Source: Halobacteriovoraceae bacterium | GTDB taxonomy: Bacteria; Bdellovibrionota; Bacteriovoracia; Bacteriovoracales; Bacteriovoracaceae | DNA length: 64,000 nt | Direction: 5' to 3' | Assembly (NCBI GenBank): GCA_002712005.1 | Contig: PASP01000014.1 | Coordinates: forward strand, 248,001-312,000 | The notes under the pieces: model-generated | Seen by the model: only the letters and a program-made list of their open reading frames with translations | The model's database searches: none | Told to the model about the DNA's origin: nothing | Translations under genes and position numbers: made by a program | Shown here: positions 1 through 14,540 of the stretch, piece by piece | Numbering within the stretch: position 1 is the stretch's first letter | Layout of the letters: each line of letters opens with the position of its first letter

Positions 1-714
1 GATGGTTTCAAACTTCGCCATAAGAAGATCGGGATTAATTGAAAATTTATTTGAAAAGTCAGCGACCACCTCAGAATAAATTTTAAAATGTTCATTCTTT
101 TGTCTTCTGAACCAACCAATTCGAGGGGTGGGTACGACTGGGGTTTTAAGAATATCCCACTCCACATTTAGAGGATTGGATTGATCATTATTTAGAATTG
201 CAAGATCAAGTTTATGCTCTCCTGCCCAAAGAACTCCTTCTTTAATTTGACCTTTGTAAATTTCAATCTGAAATTTAGAATGACTCATCAAAGTTAGGGC
301 AGATTCTTCTGCAAAAAGCTCTTCATCTAAACCAATGAAATAGACTTCAAAACCTGAATCGCTTAATGATTTTTGAAGAAATGCTAAGTGATCAAGATAG
401 AATAAGTTCTTGGTGTGAGACTCATGTATAATTCCTATTTTCTTTACTTCAAGTTGGGAAAACTGAGAATGGATCGTCTCTTTGAAAACACGGCTTGAAT
501 AATCGAGATCCATAAGACAAAGGTTGTTAAATCCAGCAGGATAAATATTCATATCCACAGGAGCAAACTTCGTTTTACTTTCTCTAATATCGACACTGGA
601 ATAAATTGGTGTCGGTAGGCTCATCATATTTTGATCAAGGTAATCGTTGACCTCATTCCAATGGGAGCTAATAAAAGCTTCGAGCTCTTCTTTTGTATTG
701 TATTGGTACTTCAT
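1..714 (-). CDS. gshA: Glutamate-cysteine ligase, GshA family (partial, C-terminus outside window)
   Basis: Glutathione synthesis, first step: ATP-dependent joining of glutamate and cysteine in the cytoplasm. The frame opens at an ATG at 714 and runs off the left edge, giving 238 residues of a protein whose family is usually over 400 residues. The stretch at residues 49-65 (KFAPVDMN, then PAGFNNL) is the signature I associate with the proteobacterial/Acidithiobacillus-type GshA family (PF08886), which is not related in sequence to E. coli GshA. The two ArsA-like ATPase genes lie just upstream on the same strand, 45 nt away, so it may be the last gene of that operon. The family call rests on remembered motif similarity. 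The gene cannot be judged complete from this window. Confidence 0.72.
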   Translation of the reverse strand, partial: MKYQYNTKEELEAFISSHWNEVNDYLDQNMMSLPTPIYSSVDIRESKTKFAPVDMNIYPAGFNNLCLMDLDYSSRVFKETIHSQFSQLEVKKIGIIHESHTKNLFYLDHLAFLQKSLSDSGFEVYFIGLDEELFAEESALTLMSHSKFQIEIYKGQIKEGVLWAGEHKLDLAILNNDQSNPLNVEWDILKTPVVPTPRIGWFRRQKNEHFKIYSEVVADFSNKFSINPDLLMAKFETI

Positions 715-759
715 TTTTAGTCCTTACTTAGATGAAAGGGGAGTAGGAATAGAGGGGGT

Positions 760-1815
760 TTATTTCCAATGCTGAGCAAGCTCTTTGACATGCGATTGGG
801 GCAGTGCGCCCAATACTTCAGGAAAGAAAATCTCTGCCTTATGTCCTACAGTTTTCGATAACTGTTTTATCTTATTTTCCCTATCTTTCATAGACTGTCT
901 AAGACGAATAAGTTCACTGTTTTGGTCGTTAGGCTGCCACTTTTCGAGGAAAGGACTAAGAGATTTATTGACTAGTAAATACGAGTCCTTATGCATGAAC
1001 TGATTGGCCTCTGTTTGAAGCTCTTTTGCTTCATCATGCTTGAATTGCTCCACGCTTGTCACAAGAAACCAGTTGGAATAAGACTCTTTTTTTAGATTCT
1101 CTTGAAACTCAAGGGCATCAAGGAAAGACTGGCGATTCAGATAAAGACCACTAATGGCCTCTATGAAGTCTTCAACAAAGTCGGCACCGGTTACTTTTTC
1201 TAGGTACTTAAGAAGCTTCTTGATTCCCGAGGTCACAATCAATGAGAGAAAACCCGATTTTTGTCCCTCTTCATTACGGTTAAACTTTTTACCCATATAT
1301 TTAAAGATTTCAACAAAGGACTTATCGAAGAATTGCTTAATCTTTTCACTGGATTGAAGAAAGTCGATGAAGTGTTTTCCTGGGGGAGTATCTAAGATAA
1401 TCGTATCAAATTCTTTTAGCGATAATTGATATTGAACTTCAATGATGGCCATAATTTCATTCATACCTCCATAAGGGCGGGTAAGAATATTAACAATAGG
1501 ATTATCGAGTTCACGCTCATTTTCAGACTTTTGGGCCATTCTTTGAAGAGTGGTTTTAGGGGACATTAATAGTGCACTAAATTCCACATTGGGTTCATCA
1601 AAAATGGCACAGTCAATTTTATGAAGGGCACCAATTTCTTTATCTTCTAATCCAAGAACTTGCTTAAGGCGTCGAGCAGGGTCAATGGTGATAAGAAGAA
1701 CTTTCTTTTTTTGTTTGGCCAGAAATAGGGCTCTACTTGTCGCTAGGGTTGTTTTCCCAACACCACCAGTTCCACAAAAAATCTCTATAGGCTTTAAACT
1801 TATTTCTTGAGTCAT
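760..1815 (-). CDS. ArsA/Get3-family ATPase, second of a pair (altered P-loop)
   Basis: Cytoplasmic P-loop ATPase of the SIMIBI class (ArsA/Get3/TRC40). The Walker A at residues 14-23 reads CGTGGVGKTT: the P-loop lysine (K21) is present, but the signature lysine that ArsA and Get3 carry two residues into the loop is a threonine (T16). DPARR (45-49) and DTPPGKH (142-148) match the family's A-loop and switch II positions. It has one ATPase domain in 351 residues, so it is half of an ArsA. Its ATG overlaps the stop of the upstream ArsA-like gene by four bases, so the two are translationally coupled and could form a heterodimer. Substrate is unknown; no arsenite genes are nearby, so arsenic export is not implied. 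Confidence 0.85.
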   Translation of the reverse strand: MTQEISLKPIEIFCGTGGVGKTTLATSRALFLAKQKKKVLLITIDPARRLKQVLGLEDKEIGALHKIDCAIFDEPNVEFSALLMSPKTTLQRMAQKSENERELDNPIVNILTRPYGGMNEIMAIIEVQYQLSLKEFDTIILDTPPGKHFIDFLQSSEKIKQFFDKSFVEIFKYMGKKFNRNEEGQKSGFLSLIVTSGIKKLLKYLEKVTGADFVEDFIEAISGLYLNRQSFLDALEFQENLKKESYSNWFLVTSVEQFKHDEAKELQTEANQFMHKDSYLLVNKSLSPFLEKWQPNDQNSELIRLRQSMKDRENKIKQLSKTVGHKAEIFFPEVLGALPQSHVKELAQHWK

Positions 1816-2708
1816 GATGGATTACCCCCATGATTAAGATAATGAACAATGGCGGTTACGAGATTTTTATTATTGGTTTCTGAAAAGTGAGCAATAGGAT
1901 TCCATGATTGATCGAGTTCCTTAAGAACTTCTAATTCAAGTTTACACTTCTCTTTTATGAATTGAGGTAGTTCGTCATTATTCTGGGAATGATCTTCATT
2001 GGTATTTTGAGAGTTTTGCACAGCTGAATTTAAATGAAGCAAATCATTGAGTATAAAAAGTGGGTCTTTTACATTTCTCTGTTCAAGTTCAACAGCGAGA
2101 TCCTTTGCCTCTTGCGTGGCCATTAATGTAGGAAGTGCTGCAATGAGAACTTGAAGATGTTTATTCTTAAAGAGAAAATCTTCCATTCGGTCGATATCAT
2201 TGACGATAAGCCCTGTTCTAAACATATCTCGAAAGTTAAGTGGGCTTTCGAACATGGTTATTGCATGCCCTGAACTTGGTGAGTCGATGACAATGGTGAG
2301 TTCAGGATCTTCTTCAAGCATATTGATAATATGGCCAAGTAGGATCATATGACCAAGTCCTGGTAACATATTAAATAGCGAGCTAAAGAAGGGAGTCTTC
2401 ATAATCCAGCCCGCAACAGTCTCCGAGTGTAGCTTTTTGCCAATATATTCTTTGGCCGAAGTGTCCATGCAAAGTTTGAAGTAGGGGATCGAAAGCTCTT
2501 TGAGCAAACCTTCTGGCAAAGGCTGATCAAAACTATTATAGAGAACTTTTCTAGAGTCAGAATCTTTTAGGTATTTGGCAAAGGCCATGGCAAGGGTTGT
2601 TTTTCCAACTCCACCCTTACCGGTAACTATAAAAAGACGTTTTTCTGGGTTTTCTTTACTGGAAAGTATAGAAGGCAGTAATAAGGAGTTTGTAGTATCT
2701 TCCTTCAA
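1812..2708 (-). CDS. ArsA/Get3-family ATPase, first of a pair
   Basis: Single-domain ArsA/Get3-like ATPase of 298 residues. The Walker A at residues 30-38 (GKGGVGKTT) is the full deviant P-loop with signature lysine K31. The switch II region is DSPSSGHA (142-149). The usual DPA motif after the second strand is replaced by NSFDQP (58-63). The start is a TTG at 2708 inside the end of the upstream barrel gene, overlapping it by 53 bases; no ATG, GTG or stronger ribosome binding site lies before the P-loop, so initiation may depend on translation of the upstream gene. The downstream partner lacks the signature lysine, so within the pair only this protein can supply that residue. Function is otherwise unknown. 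Confidence 0.83.
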   Translation of the reverse strand: MKEDTTNSLLLPSILSSKENPEKRLFIVTGKGGVGKTTLAMAFAKYLKDSDSRKVLYNSFDQPLPEGLLKELSIPYFKLCMDTSAKEYIGKKLHSETVAGWIMKTPFFSSLFNMLPGLGHMILLGHIINMLEEDPELTIVIDSPSSGHAITMFESPLNFRDMFRTGLIVNDIDRMEDFLFKNKHLQVLIAALPTLMATQEAKDLAVELEQRNVKDPLFILNDLLHLNSAVQNSQNTNEDHSQNNDELPQFIKEKCKLELEVLKELDQSWNPIAHFSETNNKNLVTAIVHYLNHGGNPS

Positions 2709-3303
2709 CTTGTGGACCTACTTCTTGTTTAACGTCAAAAGGATTATGGTATGAAGCATACAGCCCAACCGTCATTTTGTCATTTAACTTAAGGTCACCA
2801 CCACCACCTAAATGGTAGCCAAAGACTAATTTTGTCTTAGACTCAACTAAATCGTTACCGATTTGTCTTCTCACTTTAGGAGCATAGAATCCTAGTCCTG
2901 CCACAGCAAATGGTGAGAAGTTATCAATTTGATAGAATTTTGACTTAAATCCCATATTCAAACTAGTAAGTTGAGTATAGGTATTGGCAAAAGATTGTTT
3001 GGAGTGATGAAAGTCAACAAGGAGATCGAATGAATAACTTGCAGTGTAGTTATAAAGAAGATCCCAAGTGATTTTGTCTTCACCAGTATCCCCAAAGTCT
3101 CCAGCAACAAATGTCTGACCAACTCCAATTCCAACAGAATGTTTCTGAAGGTCAGAGTAGGAACTCATTTGGGTCGCTACCTGAGATGCGGACTCGCTAG
3201 AGGTTAAATTTTGGATTTTTGATTTGGCAAAAACAGAAATGCCAGTGGTCAAAAGAACCACTGGCATTAATATTTTTGTAACGAAATTAATTTTTGATTT
3301 CAT
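2656..3303 (-). CDS. Outer-membrane beta-barrel protein
   Basis: A 215-residue exported protein. Residues 1-26 form a signal peptide (lysines, hydrophobic core, cleavage near VFA-K). The mature part shows alternating hydrophobic/polar strands rich in Tyr, Phe and Gly, including two glycine runs (FAVAGLGFYAP and HLGGGGDL), and ends with ITAFYTFQ, typical of small eight-stranded barrels of the outer-membrane beta-barrel/OmpA-like type. Its 3' end overlaps the start of the ArsA-like gene by 53 bases, an unusual arrangement for an envelope protein and a cytoplasmic ATPase. No specific function can be assigned. Confidence 0.7.
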   Translation of the reverse strand: MKSKINFVTKILMPVVLLTTGISVFAKSKIQNLTSSESASQVATQMSSYSDLQKHSVGIGVGQTFVAGDFGDTGEDKITWDLLYNYTASYSFDLLVDFHHSKQSFANTYTQLTSLNMGFKSKFYQIDNFSPFAVAGLGFYAPKVRRQIGNDLVESKTKLVFGYHLGGGGDLKLNDKMTVGLYASYHNPFDVKQEVGPQVEGRYYKLLITAFYTFQ

Positions 3304-3355
3304 CTACTCAATCTCTATTTAGCAGGCTTTTTAATTAAAGCCGACACTTTTAATT

Positions 3356-3763
3356 TTAGTTTAAAGTGTTGCTAGTTTCAACTGTGGTAGTTGTTGTCGT
3401 AGTAGAGAACTCATTGTTGTTCATGAAAGGCTTGAATTCTTCATTAGCAGGCTTTTCTTCAACAACTGGTGCTTCAATTCCTTCAAGACCACGGATATAA
3501 CCAGTGAATGTCCCTTCAGTTGAGCGAATTACTCTCTTAAGAAGTTCTGTATCACCAGCTTTTGTAGATTTTTTCTCTTGATCAAAAAGAAGTTGAATTT
3601 GAGTTGTGTAAGTAATGTCGTTCTTAGTTTTGTTGTCAATTACTTGGATCTCATGCCCTTCACGGATGATTTGAGCAATTTCTTCCAATGTTACGTAACA
3701 ACTTTGGTGTGTATCGTAAAGTTTACGGTTTTGGTAGCGCTTGATGATTCTTACGTCATTCAT
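3356..3763 (-). CDS. phaR: PhaR-type polyhydroxyalkanoate regulator (DNA-binding domain protein)
   Basis: Small DNA-binding regulator. Residues 1-65 match the PHB/PHA accumulation regulator DNA-binding domain: the opening IIKRYQNRKLYDT, then the VTLEEIAQIIREG helix and the VIDNKTKNDITY segment are diagnostic. In PHA producers the family (PhaR/PhbF) represses phasin and synthesis genes and senses polymer. The second half (residues 70-135) is variable and ends in a low-complexity threonine run (about 120-127). No PHA synthase or phasin gene is in this window, so in this organism it may act more broadly. It is preceded by a purine-rich ribosome binding site (AGGGGAAACAAAG) and a 550-base intergenic region. 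Confidence 0.85.
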   Translation of the reverse strand: MNDVRIIKRYQNRKLYDTHQSCYVTLEEIAQIIREGHEIQVIDNKTKNDITYTTQIQLLFDQEKKSTKAGDTELLKRVIRSTEGTFTGYIRGLEGIEAPVVEEKPANEEFKPFMNNNEFSTTTTTTTVETSNTLN

Positions 3764-4316
3764 CTTTGTTTCCCCTATTTGTGTGAAGGATTAAAACTTA
3801 TCCTGTTATTATTTAATTAAAATTTATTAACTCTTTATAAAATTGCACTTATTTAGAGGCGCATGGCAAAAGTGCTCTGGTGCAAGTCTTATATCAACGT
3901 TTGATTAATTACTTAACACGCAGTGTAATATTTTCTTAAGAAGGTTATGGGATTTCAATAATTTTGCTTTTTTAGCCTCTGATTTCAGTTACTTAAAAAG
4001 CCGATATCGCCTTAAAATCGACATAATGCCTTGCTTAACTTTGCGAGGTCTATGGATAGCAGCATTAAAATGATGCTGTCAACCTAAATACAGGGAAAAA
4101 TCCTTACAGAAACCACTGTCAGGATTCAGATTTCGTGTTTTTGACTAGTTAGGTCGGAATCTCTCAAGCCCCTTAGGGCCGGTAAATATTGCTTGTATAA
4201 TAGAAACATCGCATTAACCCTAAGTTTCACGGAGGAAGAGGACGAAAAAGTCTAGAGAGCGAGAATGGTAATTCTCTAAAGCTCTTAAAGTTGAAATCAA
4301 GAGTAAGGTTGGATAA
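3764..4316. other. Long intergenic region with hairpins; possible structured RNA or leader
   Basis: 553 bases without a convincing coding frame between divergent genes. Three hairpins follow one another: 4029-4034 with 4043-4048; 4055-4065 with 4070-4080 (11-base arms, one mismatch, one G-T pair, TAAA loop); and 4099-4109 with 4116-4126 (11-base arms, one mismatch). A fourth, nested stem lies in the probable leader of the TPR gene (4256-4260 with 4281-4285, enclosing 4261-4266 with 4271-4276). No hairpin is followed by a clean T-run. I do not recognise a known RNA family; a small RNA or leader structure is an inference. Confidence 0.4.
4196..4201 (+). promoter_or_regulatory. Candidate -10 element for the TPR lipoprotein gene
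   Basis: A perfect TATAAT at 4196-4201. The matching -35 position (4173-4178, TTAGGG) is poor, so activation by another factor is possible. Transcription from here would give a leader of about 108 bases before the ATG at 4317, containing the nested stem at 4256-4285. Confidence 0.4.
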
Positions 4317-6188
4317 ATGAAATTAAATAAAACCGCCCCCGTATTACTACTAAGTCTCATTCTGGTAGGTTGTGCTACCGGTCATAGAGAGGGTCAGCAA
4401 AATTCTCCTGAAGAAAAGATTTCAAGTGCGTCCTCGAATGGAGAAAAAGAGCTAAGTGATGAAGAAGTTGCAAAAGCTTTTGATAATCTCGATAAGAGAA
4501 TGGAAGAGATGGTGGCCAGCGCAAAAAAAGAGGGTCCTGAAGCCGTAAAATTTGTAACAGATGATCTCTTTTTTAAGGCCAATGATGCATCGATGAGAGG
4601 TGATTCCCATACGGCAGCTTATATCTTTAAGCATCTTGTCGCTCTACAACCCAAAGACTTTTATATTCGAAAAAAATATGCGGTTGAACTTATCCGTATA
4701 GGAAGTCTTGAGGAATCAAAAGAAATTCTAGAACCTTTACTGGTTGAAAGTGATTATAAAGACGAGACTCTTGGATTAATTCTTGGAGGTGTTCAAACAG
4801 CACTCGAAGAGAAAGAAGAGGCGAGAGAAACTTATTCTAAAGTAATGGTGAAGCATCCTGGAAATGAAGAGGCATGTATTTTTCTTGCGAAGTCCTACGG
4901 AATGGAAGCGAAGTATAAGAAGTCTCATCATTTACTGGATAAATGTTTTAAGAAAAATAAGAGAGCAAGCTTTCTCTATTATAATGGGAAAGTATTTCTT
5001 AAAGAGGGAAAAATCTCTCTTGCCCAAAAGAAGTTTAAACACGCTTTGAAAGTTGACCCTACTTACTACCAAGCGGCAATGGCGATGGGACTTACAAAAG
5101 AAGATAAAGGCGATACAAAAGGAGCTATTAAAGTTTACAAAAACTTTCTCGAAGCTTCTCCTCAGTCTTTTCCTGTTCTTTCTCGTTTAGTACAGTTGAT
5201 GTTTTCAAAAGAAATGTTTGCAGAGGTCTTACCGTATGCTGAACGATTGAGCTCTTTAGATGCTAGTGATCTGAACTTAAAAGTTCGTTTAGGGATTCTT
5301 TATACTGATGCTAAATCTTTTGATAAAGCTATTGGAGTCTTTAAAGAAATTTTAGCGGCAGTCCCGTCTTCTGATAAAGTTCTCTACTACTTAGGAACTC
5401 TTTATCAAGAAGTAGAGAAACCAGAAATGGCGATGGACTATTTTGGACAAATTCCAGAAACAAGTAATCTCTATGCAGATAGCTCCCTTCAGATGGCTAA
5501 AATTATGCAAATTCTAGTTGAACTTGATCATAATAAATGGTCAAAAAACTATGTCAGCCACTTAGAAGAAAGAGGTCAAAAAGTAGAAGCTTTAAAAGTT
5601 GAGTTTCAGGTAATGATGGCCACTTACTATGAGTCTCAATACCAATACGGAGATGCTATTGCATCACTGGAAAAGGTTCGTGAAGTAAATGATTACACAG
5701 AAAATCACGATTACTACCTAGCCTCCCTATACGAAAAAAATAAAGACTATATATCTTCTCGTAAAATTATTAAGGCCATCTTGAATGATGATCCTAATAA
5801 TGCTGATGCTCTTAATTTCTTAGGATACTCTCTTCTAGAGAGTGGGGATGATATTGATGAAGCGTATCGTTTGATTACAAAAGCCGTTTCTCTTAAGCCT
5901 GAGGATGGCTATATTAGAGATAGCTTGGGTTGGTTTTATTATAAAACCGGAAAAATAGAGAAAGCTCTTGTTGAAATTCAAAAAGCCTTTGACTTAGTTA
6001 AGACAGATGTTGTCATCACGAAACATTTAGCTATTATTTATCGTGACCTAGAAAAATTTGATATGGCAAAGAAATACTTTGTAGAGGCGCTAAGAAATTG
6101 CAAACTAGAATCGGAAAGAAAAGATATTCTCGACTCCCTTGGACCTCTAAAGGATCTAAGGTTACCCGCTTCCTCTGTTGTGGATTAG
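4317..6188 (+). CDS. TPR-repeat lipoprotein
   Basis: A 623-residue lipoprotein made mostly of tetratricopeptide repeats. The signal peptide ends in a lipobox with the acylated cysteine at residue 19 (LVGC-A). After a charged, disordered linker (about 20-70), helical repeats run from about 80 to 610, with recognisable TPR signatures such as YYQAAMAMGL, LNFLGYSLLESG and IRDSLGWFYYKTG. This architecture resembles PilF/BamD-like or PelB-like scaffold lipoproteins that hold envelope complexes together, but no partner is identifiable here. The next lipoprotein gene begins inside its 3' end in another frame, so the two are probably co-translated. Function beyond periplasmic scaffolding is unknown. 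Confidence 0.85.
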   Translation: MKLNKTAPVLLLSLILVGCATGHREGQQNSPEEKISSASSNGEKELSDEEVAKAFDNLDKRMEEMVASAKKEGPEAVKFVTDDLFFKANDASMRGDSHTAAYIFKHLVALQPKDFYIRKKYAVELIRIGSLEESKEILEPLLVESDYKDETLGLILGGVQTALEEKEEARETYSKVMVKHPGNEEACIFLAKSYGMEAKYKKSHHLLDKCFKKNKRASFLYYNGKVFLKEGKISLAQKKFKHALKVDPTYYQAAMAMGLTKEDKGDTKGAIKVYKNFLEASPQSFPVLSRLVQLMFSKEMFAEVLPYAERLSSLDASDLNLKVRLGILYTDAKSFDKAIGVFKEILAAVPSSDKVLYYLGTLYQEVEKPEMAMDYFGQIPETSNLYADSSLQMAKIMQILVELDHNKWSKNYVSHLEERGQKVEALKVEFQVMMATYYESQYQYGDAIASLEKVREVNDYTENHDYYLASLYEKNKDYISSRKIIKAILNDDPNNADALNFLGYSLLESGDDIDEAYRLITKAVSLKPEDGYIRDSLGWFYYKTGKIEKALVEIQKAFDLVKTDVVITKHLAIIYRDLEKFDMAKKYFVEALRNCKLESERKDILDSLGPLKDLRLPASSVVD

Positions 6189-6820
6189 TTCTCGTTGGAC
6201 TAGCAACCACATCATCTTGTTCCCTCTTTCAAAAAAAATCTGATAAATCCCTTGTACAAAGTCTACAAGGGATTTGTTTAACAGGCTCTGGTAAGGGTCG
6301 TATCGAGTTTGAAGGGGGAAGACACCTCTTTAACTATGAATCTCTTTTAAAAGATAGAGAGCAAAGATGGGCTTTGGGCCTAAATCTTCCGATCATTGGT
6401 CAAGAAATTCTCGAATTAGATATTCCTCGTAAGTTGGGAGAGCCTTACAAGGTGAGAGGGACTTTCGCAAAACGACTCAAACTCGATATCAAGTCAAAAC
6501 GGGATCGCGTTCTCTTAGGGAAATTCTTTCAGCGTTTATCTGAATTTACTTGGGTGGTGAGTCATAAAGATACTTCTTCTGCTGAGGCCCATGGCTGGGG
6601 CTTCTACCATGATGGCGAAGATATTTTCGGAGAAGTGCAGATATCTAAAGAATTTACCTTTAAGTTTAAATCGTTCTCATTTAACCAAGATGAAAAGTTC
6701 TATGAACGTATTGGATTGTCGATAGCGAGAAACTCTAGCTCAAAAGGGTCACGCAAAGCTCAAGGATTTGAGAAAGACTACATTCAATTGCAGTTATTTG
6801 TTTCTAGTTGTGAACTCTAA
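6098..6820 (+). CDS. Lipoprotein of unknown function, overlapping the TPR gene
   Basis: A 240-residue predicted lipoprotein. It starts at a TTG (6098) with a GAGG ribosome site eight bases upstream, 91 bases inside the preceding gene; no later in-frame ATG, GTG or TTG precedes the signal sequence. Residues 24-41 form the hydrophobic segment and lipobox, with cysteine 41 as the lipidation site (TTSSC-S). The mature domain has alternating strand-like segments (GKGRIEFEGG, RWALGLNLPIIGQEILEL) that could fit a LolB-like half-barrel; similarity is weak and I do not assign LolB. The deep overlap suggests it works with the TPR lipoprotein. Confidence 0.7.
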   Translation: MQTRIGKKRYSRLPWTSKGSKVTRFLCCGLVLVGLATTSSCSLFQKKSDKSLVQSLQGICLTGSGKGRIEFEGGRHLFNYESLLKDREQRWALGLNLPIIGQEILELDIPRKLGEPYKVRGTFAKRLKLDIKSKRDRVLLGKFFQRLSEFTWVVSHKDTSSAEAHGWGFYHDGEDIFGEVQISKEFTFKFKSFSFNQDEKFYERIGLSIARNSSSKGSRKAQGFEKDYIQLQLFVSSCEL

Positions 6821-10557: not shown

Positions 10558-10570
10558 CCAAGTCTTTGGC

Positions 10571-10640
10571 TCGGTCATTTAAGAAGTGAAGGGTGTAACT
10601 TACTAATTTCACTTCTTGTAATGACCGACTTTTTCTTTTT
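10571..10640 (+). terminator. Rho-independent terminator after the ABC importer operon
   Basis: Long inverted repeat: arms 10571-10590 and about 10607-10628 (TCGGTCAT pairs with ATGACCGA at the base, and AAGTGAA with TTCACTT nearer the loop), followed by a T-rich tract from 10630. It lies 13 bases after the OppC-type stop codon. Confidence 0.88.
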
Positions 10641-10670
10641 CCTTTCCCTGAAAATACCATCCTCTACCTT

Positions 10671-10695
10671 TAAAAATTCTTAAATATTCCGATAA
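10671..10695 (+). promoter_or_regulatory. Candidate sigma-28 (FliA-type) promoter of the coiled-coil operon
   Basis: TCCGATAA at 10688-10695 matches seven of eight bases of the sigma-28 -10 consensus GCCGATAA. TAAA at 10671-10674 could be the -35, though the spacing (13) is two bases shorter than the usual 15. A transcript would start near 10703, about 20 bases before the AAGGAG ribosome site at 10721. Judged by eye only. Confidence 0.4.
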
Positions 10696-10732
10696 GTTAA
10701 GTGGATAATTCCCTAATTCCAAGGAGACTAGG

Positions 10733-11758
10733 ATCACTAACTATTGGGAACTAAAAACTTTCTTGAAAAAAAGAGAGGCAATAAAATTATTGCAGAGGCT
10801 TCCCTTTACTTTTTTTGACGTATTCTGGCTTAAGTCTAATGGAAAAAAACTTAAAATTCATAATAGAGGAAGTTATTTAACTTCTCGAGAAATCGAAAAA
10901 ATTTTAAAAAATCCTGAAGCGTTTGAAATGTCTTGGGAGATCGATATTGATTGGGTGTCAGAAGGGCTCCTGTTTTTTGAAAGGCTTCATGAATTAGAAA
11001 CAAAGAAGCCAATAGACTTAATAGAAGTTGATAATTGGAGAATCGAGTTTATTAATTGGTCTGCACCATCTCTTTGGCATGGTGATGAAGCTCAGAGAAG
11101 CTTTCTCGACTTTACGGCGCTAATGCTTTTAGGTTGTGATATTCAAAAGTCTGATTTCTATGAGAACTATGAAAACTTACCGATTGAAATTCAAGCTAGA
11201 AATATCCTACTCAGTTCAGTGATTGGATATTTTTCTACTCTAATGGGCTATGCGAGTCTCTCTGTAATGAGAGACTTATTCAAAGTATTTTTATATGCAG
11301 ATCCGCTTTATCAAACTAAAGATTGGTCTAATTCTGAAATGAAGATTCTTGATCAGATCAGTGAGAAGGGATGGTCATCTCTTAATGCTCAAGAACGTAA
11401 TATTTTGGAAAAAAATTATATTGAAAAATTAAAATCTTCTATTGAGAGATTGGAACAGCAACTTATAAATAGAGAATATGCACGTCTTCTTGAGTTTTCA
11501 ATAGAAGACTATTTTGGAAATGGGCTTCTAAGAAACGTAAAGATGAATGAATGTAATGATCTTGAGCTTCTTGTCATTCTTATTTCAAATAATATCAATA
11601 AAGAATCCTTCGCTCTAAGTGAATTAATTGAACGTAAGTTTAATGATTTATTTATTAGTGAAAAAAATAAGTCAGATCGAATAAGAAGAGTCATTTCTTC
11701 AACGGTTCATTCTGCGAGTGTTAAGAATAATAACTTTTTAAAGATTTCTGGACTGTAA
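10733..11758 (+). CDS. Unknown protein, first gene of the coiled-coil operon (start uncertain)
   Basis: Soluble protein I do not recognise. The open frame has a TTG at 10763 (331 residues) without a ribosome site. A perfect AAGGAG at 10721-10726 lies six bases before an in-frame ATC at 10733 (341 residues), and no ATG, GTG or TTG lies at a suitable distance, so I extend the gene to that rare start with low certainty. The protein has no signal peptide or clear membrane helix. It is mostly helical, rich in aromatics in the first half (PFTFFDVFWLKS, FINWSAPSLWHGDE) and charged in the second, with a possible coiled segment near IEKLKSSIERLEQQLINREYARL. The stop is directly followed by the GTG of the large coiled-coil gene, so the two probably act together. 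Confidence 0.72.
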   Translation: MTNYWELKTFLKKREAIKLLQRLPFTFFDVFWLKSNGKKLKIHNRGSYLTSREIEKILKNPEAFEMSWEIDIDWVSEGLLFFERLHELETKKPIDLIEVDNWRIEFINWSAPSLWHGDEAQRSFLDFTALMLLGCDIQKSDFYENYENLPIEIQARNILLSSVIGYFSTLMGYASLSVMRDLFKVFLYADPLYQTKDWSNSEMKILDQISEKGWSSLNAQERNILEKNYIEKLKSSIERLEQQLINREYARLLEFSIEDYFGNGLLRNVKMNECNDLELLVILISNNINKESFALSELIERKFNDLFISEKNKSDRIRRVISSTVHSASVKNNNFLKISGL

Positions 11759-11759
11759 G

Positions 11760-14360
11760 GTGAGTAAAGATTTTAAAATCTTATTTAATGGAAATATACC
11801 AACGGAGTTTAGAAACTCTATGGGGGATTATATTTCTAACTCGCCAAATGAATATATTTTTTCCTGTGGAGATGAGAATGAAAATCTCTTTTTCCAAGCA
11901 GTTGACTTAGATCACCTTGCTGGAGCTCCGTGTGCCTATGTTGATGATCAGATCTTCAAAAGTGAAGTCGCACAAATGATTATGCGTAGAGCGGCAGGGA
12001 ATGTAGGTTCACTGAATATAGATGATCTGAAAGATGATCTAATAGAGAAGAGTTTTACGGTTAAAGTTCTTAATGAATACTCAATAGGCCATATTTCAGA
12101 TATTGTTTTAAACTTTGCTTTAGAGAGGAAGGTCGATGCTCATGCTGTTAGACCCTTTGTTATAAATCTTTTAAGCTATTTAACTCTATTAAAGAAGTCT
12201 GAAATTATTAATTTTCCTGTTGAACTTGATTGTGGTTTCTCTGAAGATACTTTTTTCATTCAAGTACACTGTAAAAATAATGCATTTGTCTTTGATAATA
12301 TTAGAGATAGTCTCAATGAAAAATCAAAATATAGCTCTGAGCTCTTTAAAGATATCTTGAAATATACAGATTTACTAAATCTCTTCACAATCGATTCAAG
12401 TGAAAAATTAGTTGTAACAGGCTGTTGGTTCTATGAAGGGATATGGGAAAAACAGAAAGAATACAGCTCTCTAATTTTACATGATATAAAGTCTCTTGGT
12501 CTGGATAAGATCGAAGTCGAAAACTCGGTAAATACTTTTCTAAATCACTCTTTGACCAATATATCTAAGCATAGAGAAGTACAGGATAGACTTCCTAAGA
12601 AATATATTTCCAAAAAAGAAAGTCAGGGCATAGAGGCCGTCAATCCTGTTAAAATACGAGGGATTTATAAAGCTCTTAAGGATCACGTAAGAATTCCTGT
12701 TTCTGATCATTTTGATGCTGATGACCTGGATGATTTACTTTCAACTTATCCAAGACGAATACAATCTAATTCATTGAATAAAACTGAGAAAAAAGAATTA
12801 GTTAGACTTCTTAAAAGTGGAGTTAGTTTAGAAGAAGAGAAAAACCTTGATGAGGAAATTCGCAGAGTTAAGGGGAAGATCGATAATAAGGAATATGCTT
12901 CTCAGGTGATTAAAAGTGTTACCGAACTCTCTACAGATCAAGTAAGAAGAATTGCTGGAAGTAAAGAAGATCTATCTGAGGATATTATCAAAGTAAAAGG
13001 CTCTCTCTATGAGCAATTTGATGAAGGAATTCAAAAAGTATCTGGTGTAACAGAAGTCATTAAAGATGATGTTCGAGAGGTTGAATCTTCTGAGTCAAAA
13101 CCTAAGAATGATCAAGATGAAATAAATGAGAGAGTTAGAGCTTCACAGATATTCGATGATGAAGAAGTTTGGGAACTGAAGAGAAAGAATGTTCTTGAAA
13201 AAATGAATGTTGAGCTGTCTTCTCTCTCTGAAGATGATTTTGGCCACGATAAAGTCGATGAAAAAGTAGAAGGTATTTTCCAGTCTGAACTTGGAGTGAA
13301 TGAACAAGATAGTAAGCAGGTTGTAAAAGAATTGAGTGAAAGTGCTACTGAGCAATGGGTAGAGGAAAGTGTTGATGGTGTTAATCAAGAAATCAGGCAA
13401 AGATTTAGACTTGAGAAAGTAGAATCATTGCTTGAGGCAAGAATTAAGCAAGTTGATAAAATGAAGGAGTTGATCACTCGACTTAAAATAGAAAATGGAA
13501 ACTTAAATGTAAAAGTTAGAGAAATGGAAAAAGAAGCAAAGGTCTTGGATTTCCATGAGAGAAGAGCTGCGGATGCGGATATTGAGGGAGAAAGTCAATT
13601 TGATCAAGAAAGTCGCAATAGCGTGAATGAAGGTGCCGATCAGAGTGAAGAGTCTGCAAATGGACATCATTTACAATTAGAAGTAGAAAACGAAAAGCTT
13701 AAATCTCAAGTCGAATCTTTAAAGAAGAAAATTAATTATATGTACGAAAATTCTAAGGCCAATGCGGGAACTAATCTAGATACGAATGATATACAAGATA
13801 TGGCTGCTGAGAATGAAAGACTTAAGAAATCAATTGCTGGCTTTAATGCTGAAATAGAAAAAGTTAAGTCGGAAAAAAGGGATGCCGAAATTTTAGCGCA
13901 AAGACGAGAAAAGGAACTTGAAGCGAAAGAAAAGTTACTTGCAAAATATATAGAAGAAGGAAATCAAACTAGTCATAAAAAATCTCAAGAGGAAATTAGG
14001 CTTCTTAAAGAGACAATTAAAGATCTTAATCAGACTAATAAAGAATCTGTTCTTCATGCTAAGTCTTATGAGCAGAAGCTAAAATTTGTGAATGCTCAGC
14101 TTGAAAGATTTAAAAAGCAAGAGAAACGACGTGCGCAAGCTGGTGCAGGTTCGGGGGCTGTAGATCCTAAAGTTAAGAATAAAATTAAGAAAATGGAAAT
14201 CATGCAAGATAAGATGAAGCAGGCCCACTCTAAAGCCCAGAAAGAGCTGGCAGACAAGAAGACGGAGCTCCATAAAGTGACTTTAGAGAATAAGACCTTA
14301 AATGTTAAAGTTCGTGAGCTGGAAAGAAAGTTGGATGTTCTTGGAAGAAAGGCCTCTTAA
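11760..14360 (+). CDS. Large coiled-coil protein with an internal short-repeat region
   Basis: An 866-residue cytoplasmic protein starting at GTG 11760, one base after the previous stop. Residues 1-270 look globular and are unfamiliar. A middle section (about 365-445) contains a degenerate short repeat built on [IV]x[KR][VI]xG: IRRVKG, VRRIAGS, IIKVKGS, IQKVSG, VREVESS, spaced 14-19 residues apart. From about 545 to the end it is long coiled coil with heptad leucines, interrupted by acidic low-complexity linkers (about 605-640) and a short Gly/Ala segment near 795. There is no signal peptide or membrane helix. The shape suggests a scaffold or cytoskeletal adaptor, as with AglZ/FrzS-type polarity proteins, but no domain supports a specific assignment. 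Confidence 0.8.
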   Translation: MSKDFKILFNGNIPTEFRNSMGDYISNSPNEYIFSCGDENENLFFQAVDLDHLAGAPCAYVDDQIFKSEVAQMIMRRAAGNVGSLNIDDLKDDLIEKSFTVKVLNEYSIGHISDIVLNFALERKVDAHAVRPFVINLLSYLTLLKKSEIINFPVELDCGFSEDTFFIQVHCKNNAFVFDNIRDSLNEKSKYSSELFKDILKYTDLLNLFTIDSSEKLVVTGCWFYEGIWEKQKEYSSLILHDIKSLGLDKIEVENSVNTFLNHSLTNISKHREVQDRLPKKYISKKESQGIEAVNPVKIRGIYKALKDHVRIPVSDHFDADDLDDLLSTYPRRIQSNSLNKTEKKELVRLLKSGVSLEEEKNLDEEIRRVKGKIDNKEYASQVIKSVTELSTDQVRRIAGSKEDLSEDIIKVKGSLYEQFDEGIQKVSGVTEVIKDDVREVESSESKPKNDQDEINERVRASQIFDDEEVWELKRKNVLEKMNVELSSLSEDDFGHDKVDEKVEGIFQSELGVNEQDSKQVVKELSESATEQWVEESVDGVNQEIRQRFRLEKVESLLEARIKQVDKMKELITRLKIENGNLNVKVREMEKEAKVLDFHERRAADADIEGESQFDQESRNSVNEGADQSEESANGHHLQLEVENEKLKSQVESLKKKINYMYENSKANAGTNLDTNDIQDMAAENERLKKSIAGFNAEIEKVKSEKRDAEILAQRREKELEAKEKLLAKYIEEGNQTSHKKSQEEIRLLKETIKDLNQTNKESVLHAKSYEQKLKFVNAQLERFKKQEKRRAQAGAGSGAVDPKVKNKIKKMEIMQDKMKQAHSKAQKELADKKTELHKVTLENKTLNVKVRELERKLDVLGRKAS

Positions 14361-14456: not shown

Positions 14457-14540
14457 GCCGCAGTGGTGAAATTGGTAGACACGCTAGACTTAGGATCTAG
14501 TGCCTTTGGCGTGGGGGTTCAAGTCCCTCCTGCGGCACCA
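14457..14540 (+). tRNA. tRNA-Leu, anticodon UAG
   Basis: The acceptor stem GCCGCAG (14457-14463) pairs with CTGCGGC (14530-14536), followed by an encoded ACCA end. The anticodon stem CTAGA/TCTAG encloses loop CTTAGGA with anticodon TAG at 14491-14493. A variable arm follows (TGCCTTTGGCGT), as expected for a class II leucine tRNA, and a GGTTCAAGTCC T-loop. Confidence 0.96.

Follow-up and report, generated by a model that had tools for sequence, protein, structure and literature searches.

A predicted degenerate HD-GYP protein and its coiled-coil partner, a candidate attack-phase gene pair of Bacteriovoracaceae

Gene structure, neighbourhood and spread of the pair

The window, by which we mean the whole stretch of 64,000 nucleotides that was analysed, carries two genes, here called P1 and P2, whose adjacency the initial annotation had described correctly: both ORFs lie on the + strand and are separated by a single base. 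The features of the locus are as follows.

10571..10641, + strand: Rho-independent terminator after oppC; hairpin at about 10571-10628, then a T tract
10669..10673, + strand: weak -35-like element TTTAA, with a spacer of 15 to CCGATA; 3 of 5 positions match TTAAG
10688..10695, + strand: sigma-28/FliA-like -10 element TCCGATAA; CCGATA tops the hexamer enrichment in the upstream regions of 37 orthologues
10763-11758, + strand: gene 1 (P1), TTG start, 331 aa; predicted degenerate HD-GYP protein with two domains as in Bd1817; position of the start codon uncertain
11297..11302, + strand: P1 residues 179-180, former HD motif, here A-D (alignment of 37 orthologues)
11498..11506, + strand: P1 residues 246-248, former HHE motif, here S-I-E (alignment of 37 orthologues)
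11760-14360, + strand: gene 2 (P2), GTG start, 866 aa; scaffold-like protein
12042..12434, + strand: P2 residues 95-225, tentative degenerate GHKL (RsbW/SpoIIAB-like) domain (AF2 model and Foldseek)
12936..13094, + strand: P2 residues 393-445, acidic [VI]xGsxEDlxE repeats, degenerate here (motif count)
13377..14357, + strand: P2 residues 540-866, coiled coil with a break at about 600-630 (heptad periodicity)
14346..14357, + strand: P2 C-terminal tail, here R-K-A-S; conserved pattern K-x(0-2)-A-[AS]-COOH

Among the listed starts of P1 the TTG at 10763 comes first, but the best Shine-Dalgarno-like stretch (AAGGAG, 10721-10726) lies farther upstream. The strong terminator downstream of oppC was found by folding (-31.9 kcal/mol for the folded stretch); a simple hairpin scan missed it, probably owing to its loop. 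Since it separates oppC from P1, the two genes probably form one transcription unit of their own, apart from the opp genes.

The usual gene order at this locus is a divergent PhaR-like gene, a TPR protein, a LolB-like lipoprotein, oppA, oppB, oppC, (oppD, oppF), P1 and P2. While oppD and oppF follow oppC in many relatives, they are absent from the window locus (10558-10762) and from several relatives (L032, L041 and L042).

P1 and P2 are adjacent in all 37 family loci examined. By sequence, P2 was found in 17 of the 39 sampled genomes, all from one family, and the named records with the pair are titled Bacteriovoracaceae; a permease-based scan of named genomes yielded at least two unambiguous family loci that contain both genes, besides one that is shorter and more distant. 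Within the family, a profile of the P2 N-terminal part matches 98 of 129 genomes (about three quarters), all of which are flagellin-positive. The pair is absent from all five flagellin-less family genomes, which represent two genera only, and 26 flagellated family genomes also lack P2; the link to flagellin is loose. A shorter, similar pair occurs in more distant relatives (L193, L198, L199 and L050) in similar or partly similar settings. The suggestion that the system is lineage-specific is supported: so far, the pair has been found only in predatory-type Bacteriovoracaceae and near relatives.

Sequence relationships of P1 and P2

Both products had originally been described as devoid of recognisable domains. 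Single-sequence Pfam, NCBIfam and PHROGs scans of the pair gave nothing usable and neither protein shows clear homology to a housekeeping family, but for P1 the description fails once profiles are compared. HD_5 (Pfam) matches appear in 6 of 17 P1 orthologues, and a PDB search with the P1 profile yields V-cGAP3, matched at the HHExxDGxGYP motif (E 6e-4), as well as a weak match to the N-terminus of Bd1817 (E 0.014). When the 37-sequence P1 profile was aligned by hhalign with 13 same-genome HD_5 candidates, the match reached 99.2% (E 2.8e-19) over 264 columns, as compared to less than 0.2% for controls with reversed or shuffled columns; own-genus members alone gave 95.5%. In a phylum-wide search with the P1 profile, several matches ranking below the true orthologues coincide with HD_5 matches in the genome of the window. 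Descent of P1 from HD-GYP proteins is well supported by these profiles, on which its identity rests because the AF2 model built from 4 sequences was poor and a fold search of that model came back empty. A DUF6576 match was treated as incidental, being sub-threshold and overlapping the HD-GYP region, and PDB matches of the P1 profile to Prp8 and phosphoserine aminotransferase were taken as chance.

The metal ligands have been lost to different extents. The HD motif has lost its His in 37/37 orthologues and kept its Asp in 29; the HHE histidines persist in 20-24 of the 37 and are lost in the window's genus. The G-Y/F-P signature, intact in many other members, reads G-L-L in the window's P1, which also lacks the HP histidine. 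Replacing metal ligands by alanine impaired c-di-GMP hydrolysis in PmGH; taken with the ligand losses, this makes catalysis by P1 very unlikely, and the P1 lineage is very probably dead as an enzyme, with no c-di-GMP hydrolysis expected. The closest parallel is Bd1817 of Bdellovibrio bacteriovorus (PDB 3tm8), which, like P1, comprises about 330 residues with an N-terminal domain followed by HD-GYP, and which is enzymatically inactive yet binds two irons (PMC4159591). P1 differs in that the HD His is lost in every member, with further ligands gone in the window's genus, and in that its gene is locked to that of a coiled-coil partner. With P1, the HD-GYP proteins would gain a clear example of a lineage that has abandoned catalysis and stays tied to one scaffold-like partner.

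About a third of P1 members end in a conserved [YF]hxhxGL-type tail (window 11729-11755), mainly the closer ones (L032-L040, L172 and L181); it is possibly a partner-binding tail. Other HD-GYP paralogues of the same genome also look degenerate (L195:7814-8812, L133 and L139), the HHE stretch being replaced by, for example, HEENLQG, or HEENPDG in L195.

For P2 the description holds as far as sequence goes: no domain is recognisable in the N-terminal part, which matches neither the sequence libraries nor any PDB chain. In a 24-sequence alignment, G110, D114 and P153 are invariant within residues 95-225. An AF2 model of P2 from four sequences is of low confidence (mean pLDDT 46; about 58-72 at residues about 90-170 and about 37-48 at 171-225), and Foldseek on this low-confidence model returns RsbW/SpoIIAB/UsfX as top matches (probability 1.00, target TM 0.63-0.77), all six matches with E < 0.001 being anti-sigma-factor complexes (RsbW, UsfX). 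Comparison with GHKL/RsbW-type sequences by hhalign, in a set with few RsbW-type sequences, gave 0.3%, that is, no profile support; we therefore call the degenerate GHKL fold of residues 95-225 tentative. While the modelled fold resembles that of the GHKL anti-sigma kinases RsbW and SpoIIAB, P2 lacks a recognised ATP-binding motif, and its domain is fused to repeats and a coiled coil. A receiver domain at residues 1-95 was considered and rejected (hhalign against receiver domains 0.3%, within controls), with the proviso that this sequence-only comparison would let a very diverged fold escape.

Acidic [VI]xGsxEDlxE repeats, varying in number (0-12 motif matches per orthologue), separate the N-terminal part from the coiled coil, and the orthologues vary strongly in length, from 681 to 1787 aa. 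The C-terminal coiled coil is present as initially annotated, although its extent, given as over 300 residues, is better put at roughly 300 in two stretches. Heptad periodicity scores z = 3.5 for residues 540-866, though 250-540 also reaches 3.9, and the P2 profile matches coiled coils in the PDB. Conservation amounts to 29% in the last 110 residues versus 22% in the first 260. The protein ends in a short, basic, conserved tail: 31 of 34 complete members terminate in K-x(0-2)-AA/AS/VA, as compared to 15 of 666 background ORFs, a background that itself contains two pieces of P2.

The promoter element upstream of P1

The sigma-28-like -10 element proposed upstream of P1, in the + orientation, proved to be conserved across orthologues and above chance. 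Of all hexamers in the 150 bases ahead of P1, CCGATA is the most enriched (18/37 loci vs 0.84 expected), followed by CCGAAA (14 loci vs 0.82 expected), and CCGATA[AGT] or CCGAAAA is present at 29 of 37 loci, with about one occurrence in shuffles and none on the opposite strand; these 37 regions come from related loci and are hence not 37 independent events. For most of the orthologous proteins, however, identity to those of the window is only about 15-30%. Four of the window's closest relatives (L032, L035, L036 and L037) have CCGAAAA in place of CCGATAA, the upstream sequence reading CCGAAAAG where the window has CCGATAAG.

On the -35 side, TAAA is found at the window locus at 10671-10674 with a gap of 13 bases to TCCGATAA, the textbook sigma-28 spacer between a -35 TAAA and the -10 element being 15 bases; judged by the Bdellovibrio consensus, TTTAA at a spacer of 15 is the best -35 there. 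Several orthologues match TTAAG at N16 in 4-5 of 5 positions, and that of L171 matches TTAAG-N16-CCGATA exactly. This is the motif found in 66% of B. bacteriovorus attack-phase promoters and assigned to FliA (Karunker 2013, PMC3627812). The P1-P2 upstream regions share its CCGATA core, although the window copy has a weak -35. A sigma-28 (FliA)-type promoter in front of P1 is well supported by the conservation of its -10 element, and with such a promoter P1 and P2 would probably be made in the motile attack phase. The FliA-type attack-phase regulon, as mapped in Bdellovibrio, may by this token extend to Bacteriovoracaceae.

Across the same genome, TAAA-N14-16-NCCGATAA is present 26 times as compared to 9 for the control; most of these sites directly precede an ORF, and an MCP and an HD-GYP protein are among the products. 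For TAAG-N15-17-CCGATA there is no enrichment in this genome (26 vs 20), and the local -35 consensus may therefore be nearer TAAA than TAAG. Sigma-28-like elements at L210, L204, L224 and L221 precede genes for an HD-GYP protein and an MCP (the latter by Pfam), as well as for a probable PilB/GspE-type ATPase and a probable FHA protein (both by eye). Flagellin loci yielded little, one flagellin of the same genome having CCGATA just upstream.

Possible roles of the pair

We consider an attack-phase scaffold, with P1 as a non-catalytic adaptor and P2 as a coiled-coil organiser, the most likely reading, with a probability of roughly 0.55; a scaffold role, complex formation, location, a c-di-GMP link and proteolysis are what we infer for P1/P2. 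A sigma-28 (FliA)-type promoter would drive the unit in the motile attack phase. P1, a pseudo-HD-GYP protein that keeps the two-domain build, would most likely act as a nucleotide-responsive or purely protein-binding adaptor, and P2, its co-encoded partner, would bring motility or predation proteins together as an oligomeric scaffold, perhaps at a pole; its N-terminal part would serve for interaction, with the acidic repeats as a flexible linker ahead of the long coiled coil. The invasive pole of Bdellovibrio harbours both the hub protein RomR and c-di-GMP proteins, which makes a similar polar role for P1-P2 plausible by analogy, while being no evidence for the pair itself. The opp peptide-transport neighbours speak against the scaffold reading insofar as by themselves they suggest no motility role. 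This reading turns an anonymous gene pair into a defined and testable candidate component of the attack-phase machinery in Bacteriovoracaceae, which is less known than its counterpart in Bdellovibrio.

The scaffold would be analogous, not homologous, to FrzS and AglZ of Myxococcus xanthus. Localisation of FrzS depends on three parts, namely a degenerate signalling domain at the N-terminus, a long coiled coil and the extreme C-terminal tail, and AglZ is of similar build (PMC1974792). P2 shares the long coiled coil and the conserved tail; it differs in its N-terminus, which has neither a PDB sequence match nor a receiver-domain profile match, and in having a pseudo-HD-GYP protein as its partner. 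The P2 tail also resembles the ClpXP degrons ssrA (ALAA) and MuA (RRKKAI). By analogy it may be a FrzS-like localisation tail, tagging a pole or a partner, or equally a ClpXP-type degron that would clear the scaffold on the switch to growth. An elaboration in which two dead enzymes, a pseudo-HD-GYP and a pseudo-GHKL protein, form a FliA-controlled attack-phase scaffold of the predator lineage, removed through a C-terminal degron at the growth switch is speculative and rather doubtful.

The structural matches of the P2 model could instead be taken at face value, its RsbW/SpoIIAB-like part binding a sigma factor or STAS protein, with P1 as modulator and the coiled coil serving only for oligomerisation. 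Such an anti-sigma or partner-switch-like regulator would fit both the top matches to anti-sigma kinases and the alternative-sigma promoter in front of the operon; we nonetheless regard it as unlikely, given the low confidence of the model, the missing profile support and the N-box Asn, which is not conserved among P2 members in their alignment. Anti-sigma kinases are, moreover, not known to carry a coiled coil of such length, about 300 residues. A long coiled coil in a fast-diverging protein of such variable length would equally suit a structural cytoskeletal or envelope component with no link to motility or c-di-GMP signalling, P1 being a chaperone or adaptor only, and yet the conserved FliA-like element and the derivation of P1 from a c-di-GMP enzyme family render this improbable. 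Position at the locus, downstream of the TPR, LolB-like and oppABC genes in most cases, would favour a regulator or assembly factor for the peptide transporter or for the TPR/LolB-like envelope genes; against it stand the separate terminator and promoter of P1-P2 and the two loci (L043 and L182) that have the pair without adjacent opp genes, and of the alternatives it appears the least probable.

As to the flanks of the locus, window positions 1-6820 hold a conserved divergent block in which genes for a GshA-like ligase, two ATPases of the ArsA family, an outer-membrane protein and the PhaR-like regulator face those for the TPR protein and the lipoprotein (LolB-like by eye only). Directly downstream of P2, with no clear terminator in between, lies a tRNA-Leu (anticodon tag) at 14457-14540.
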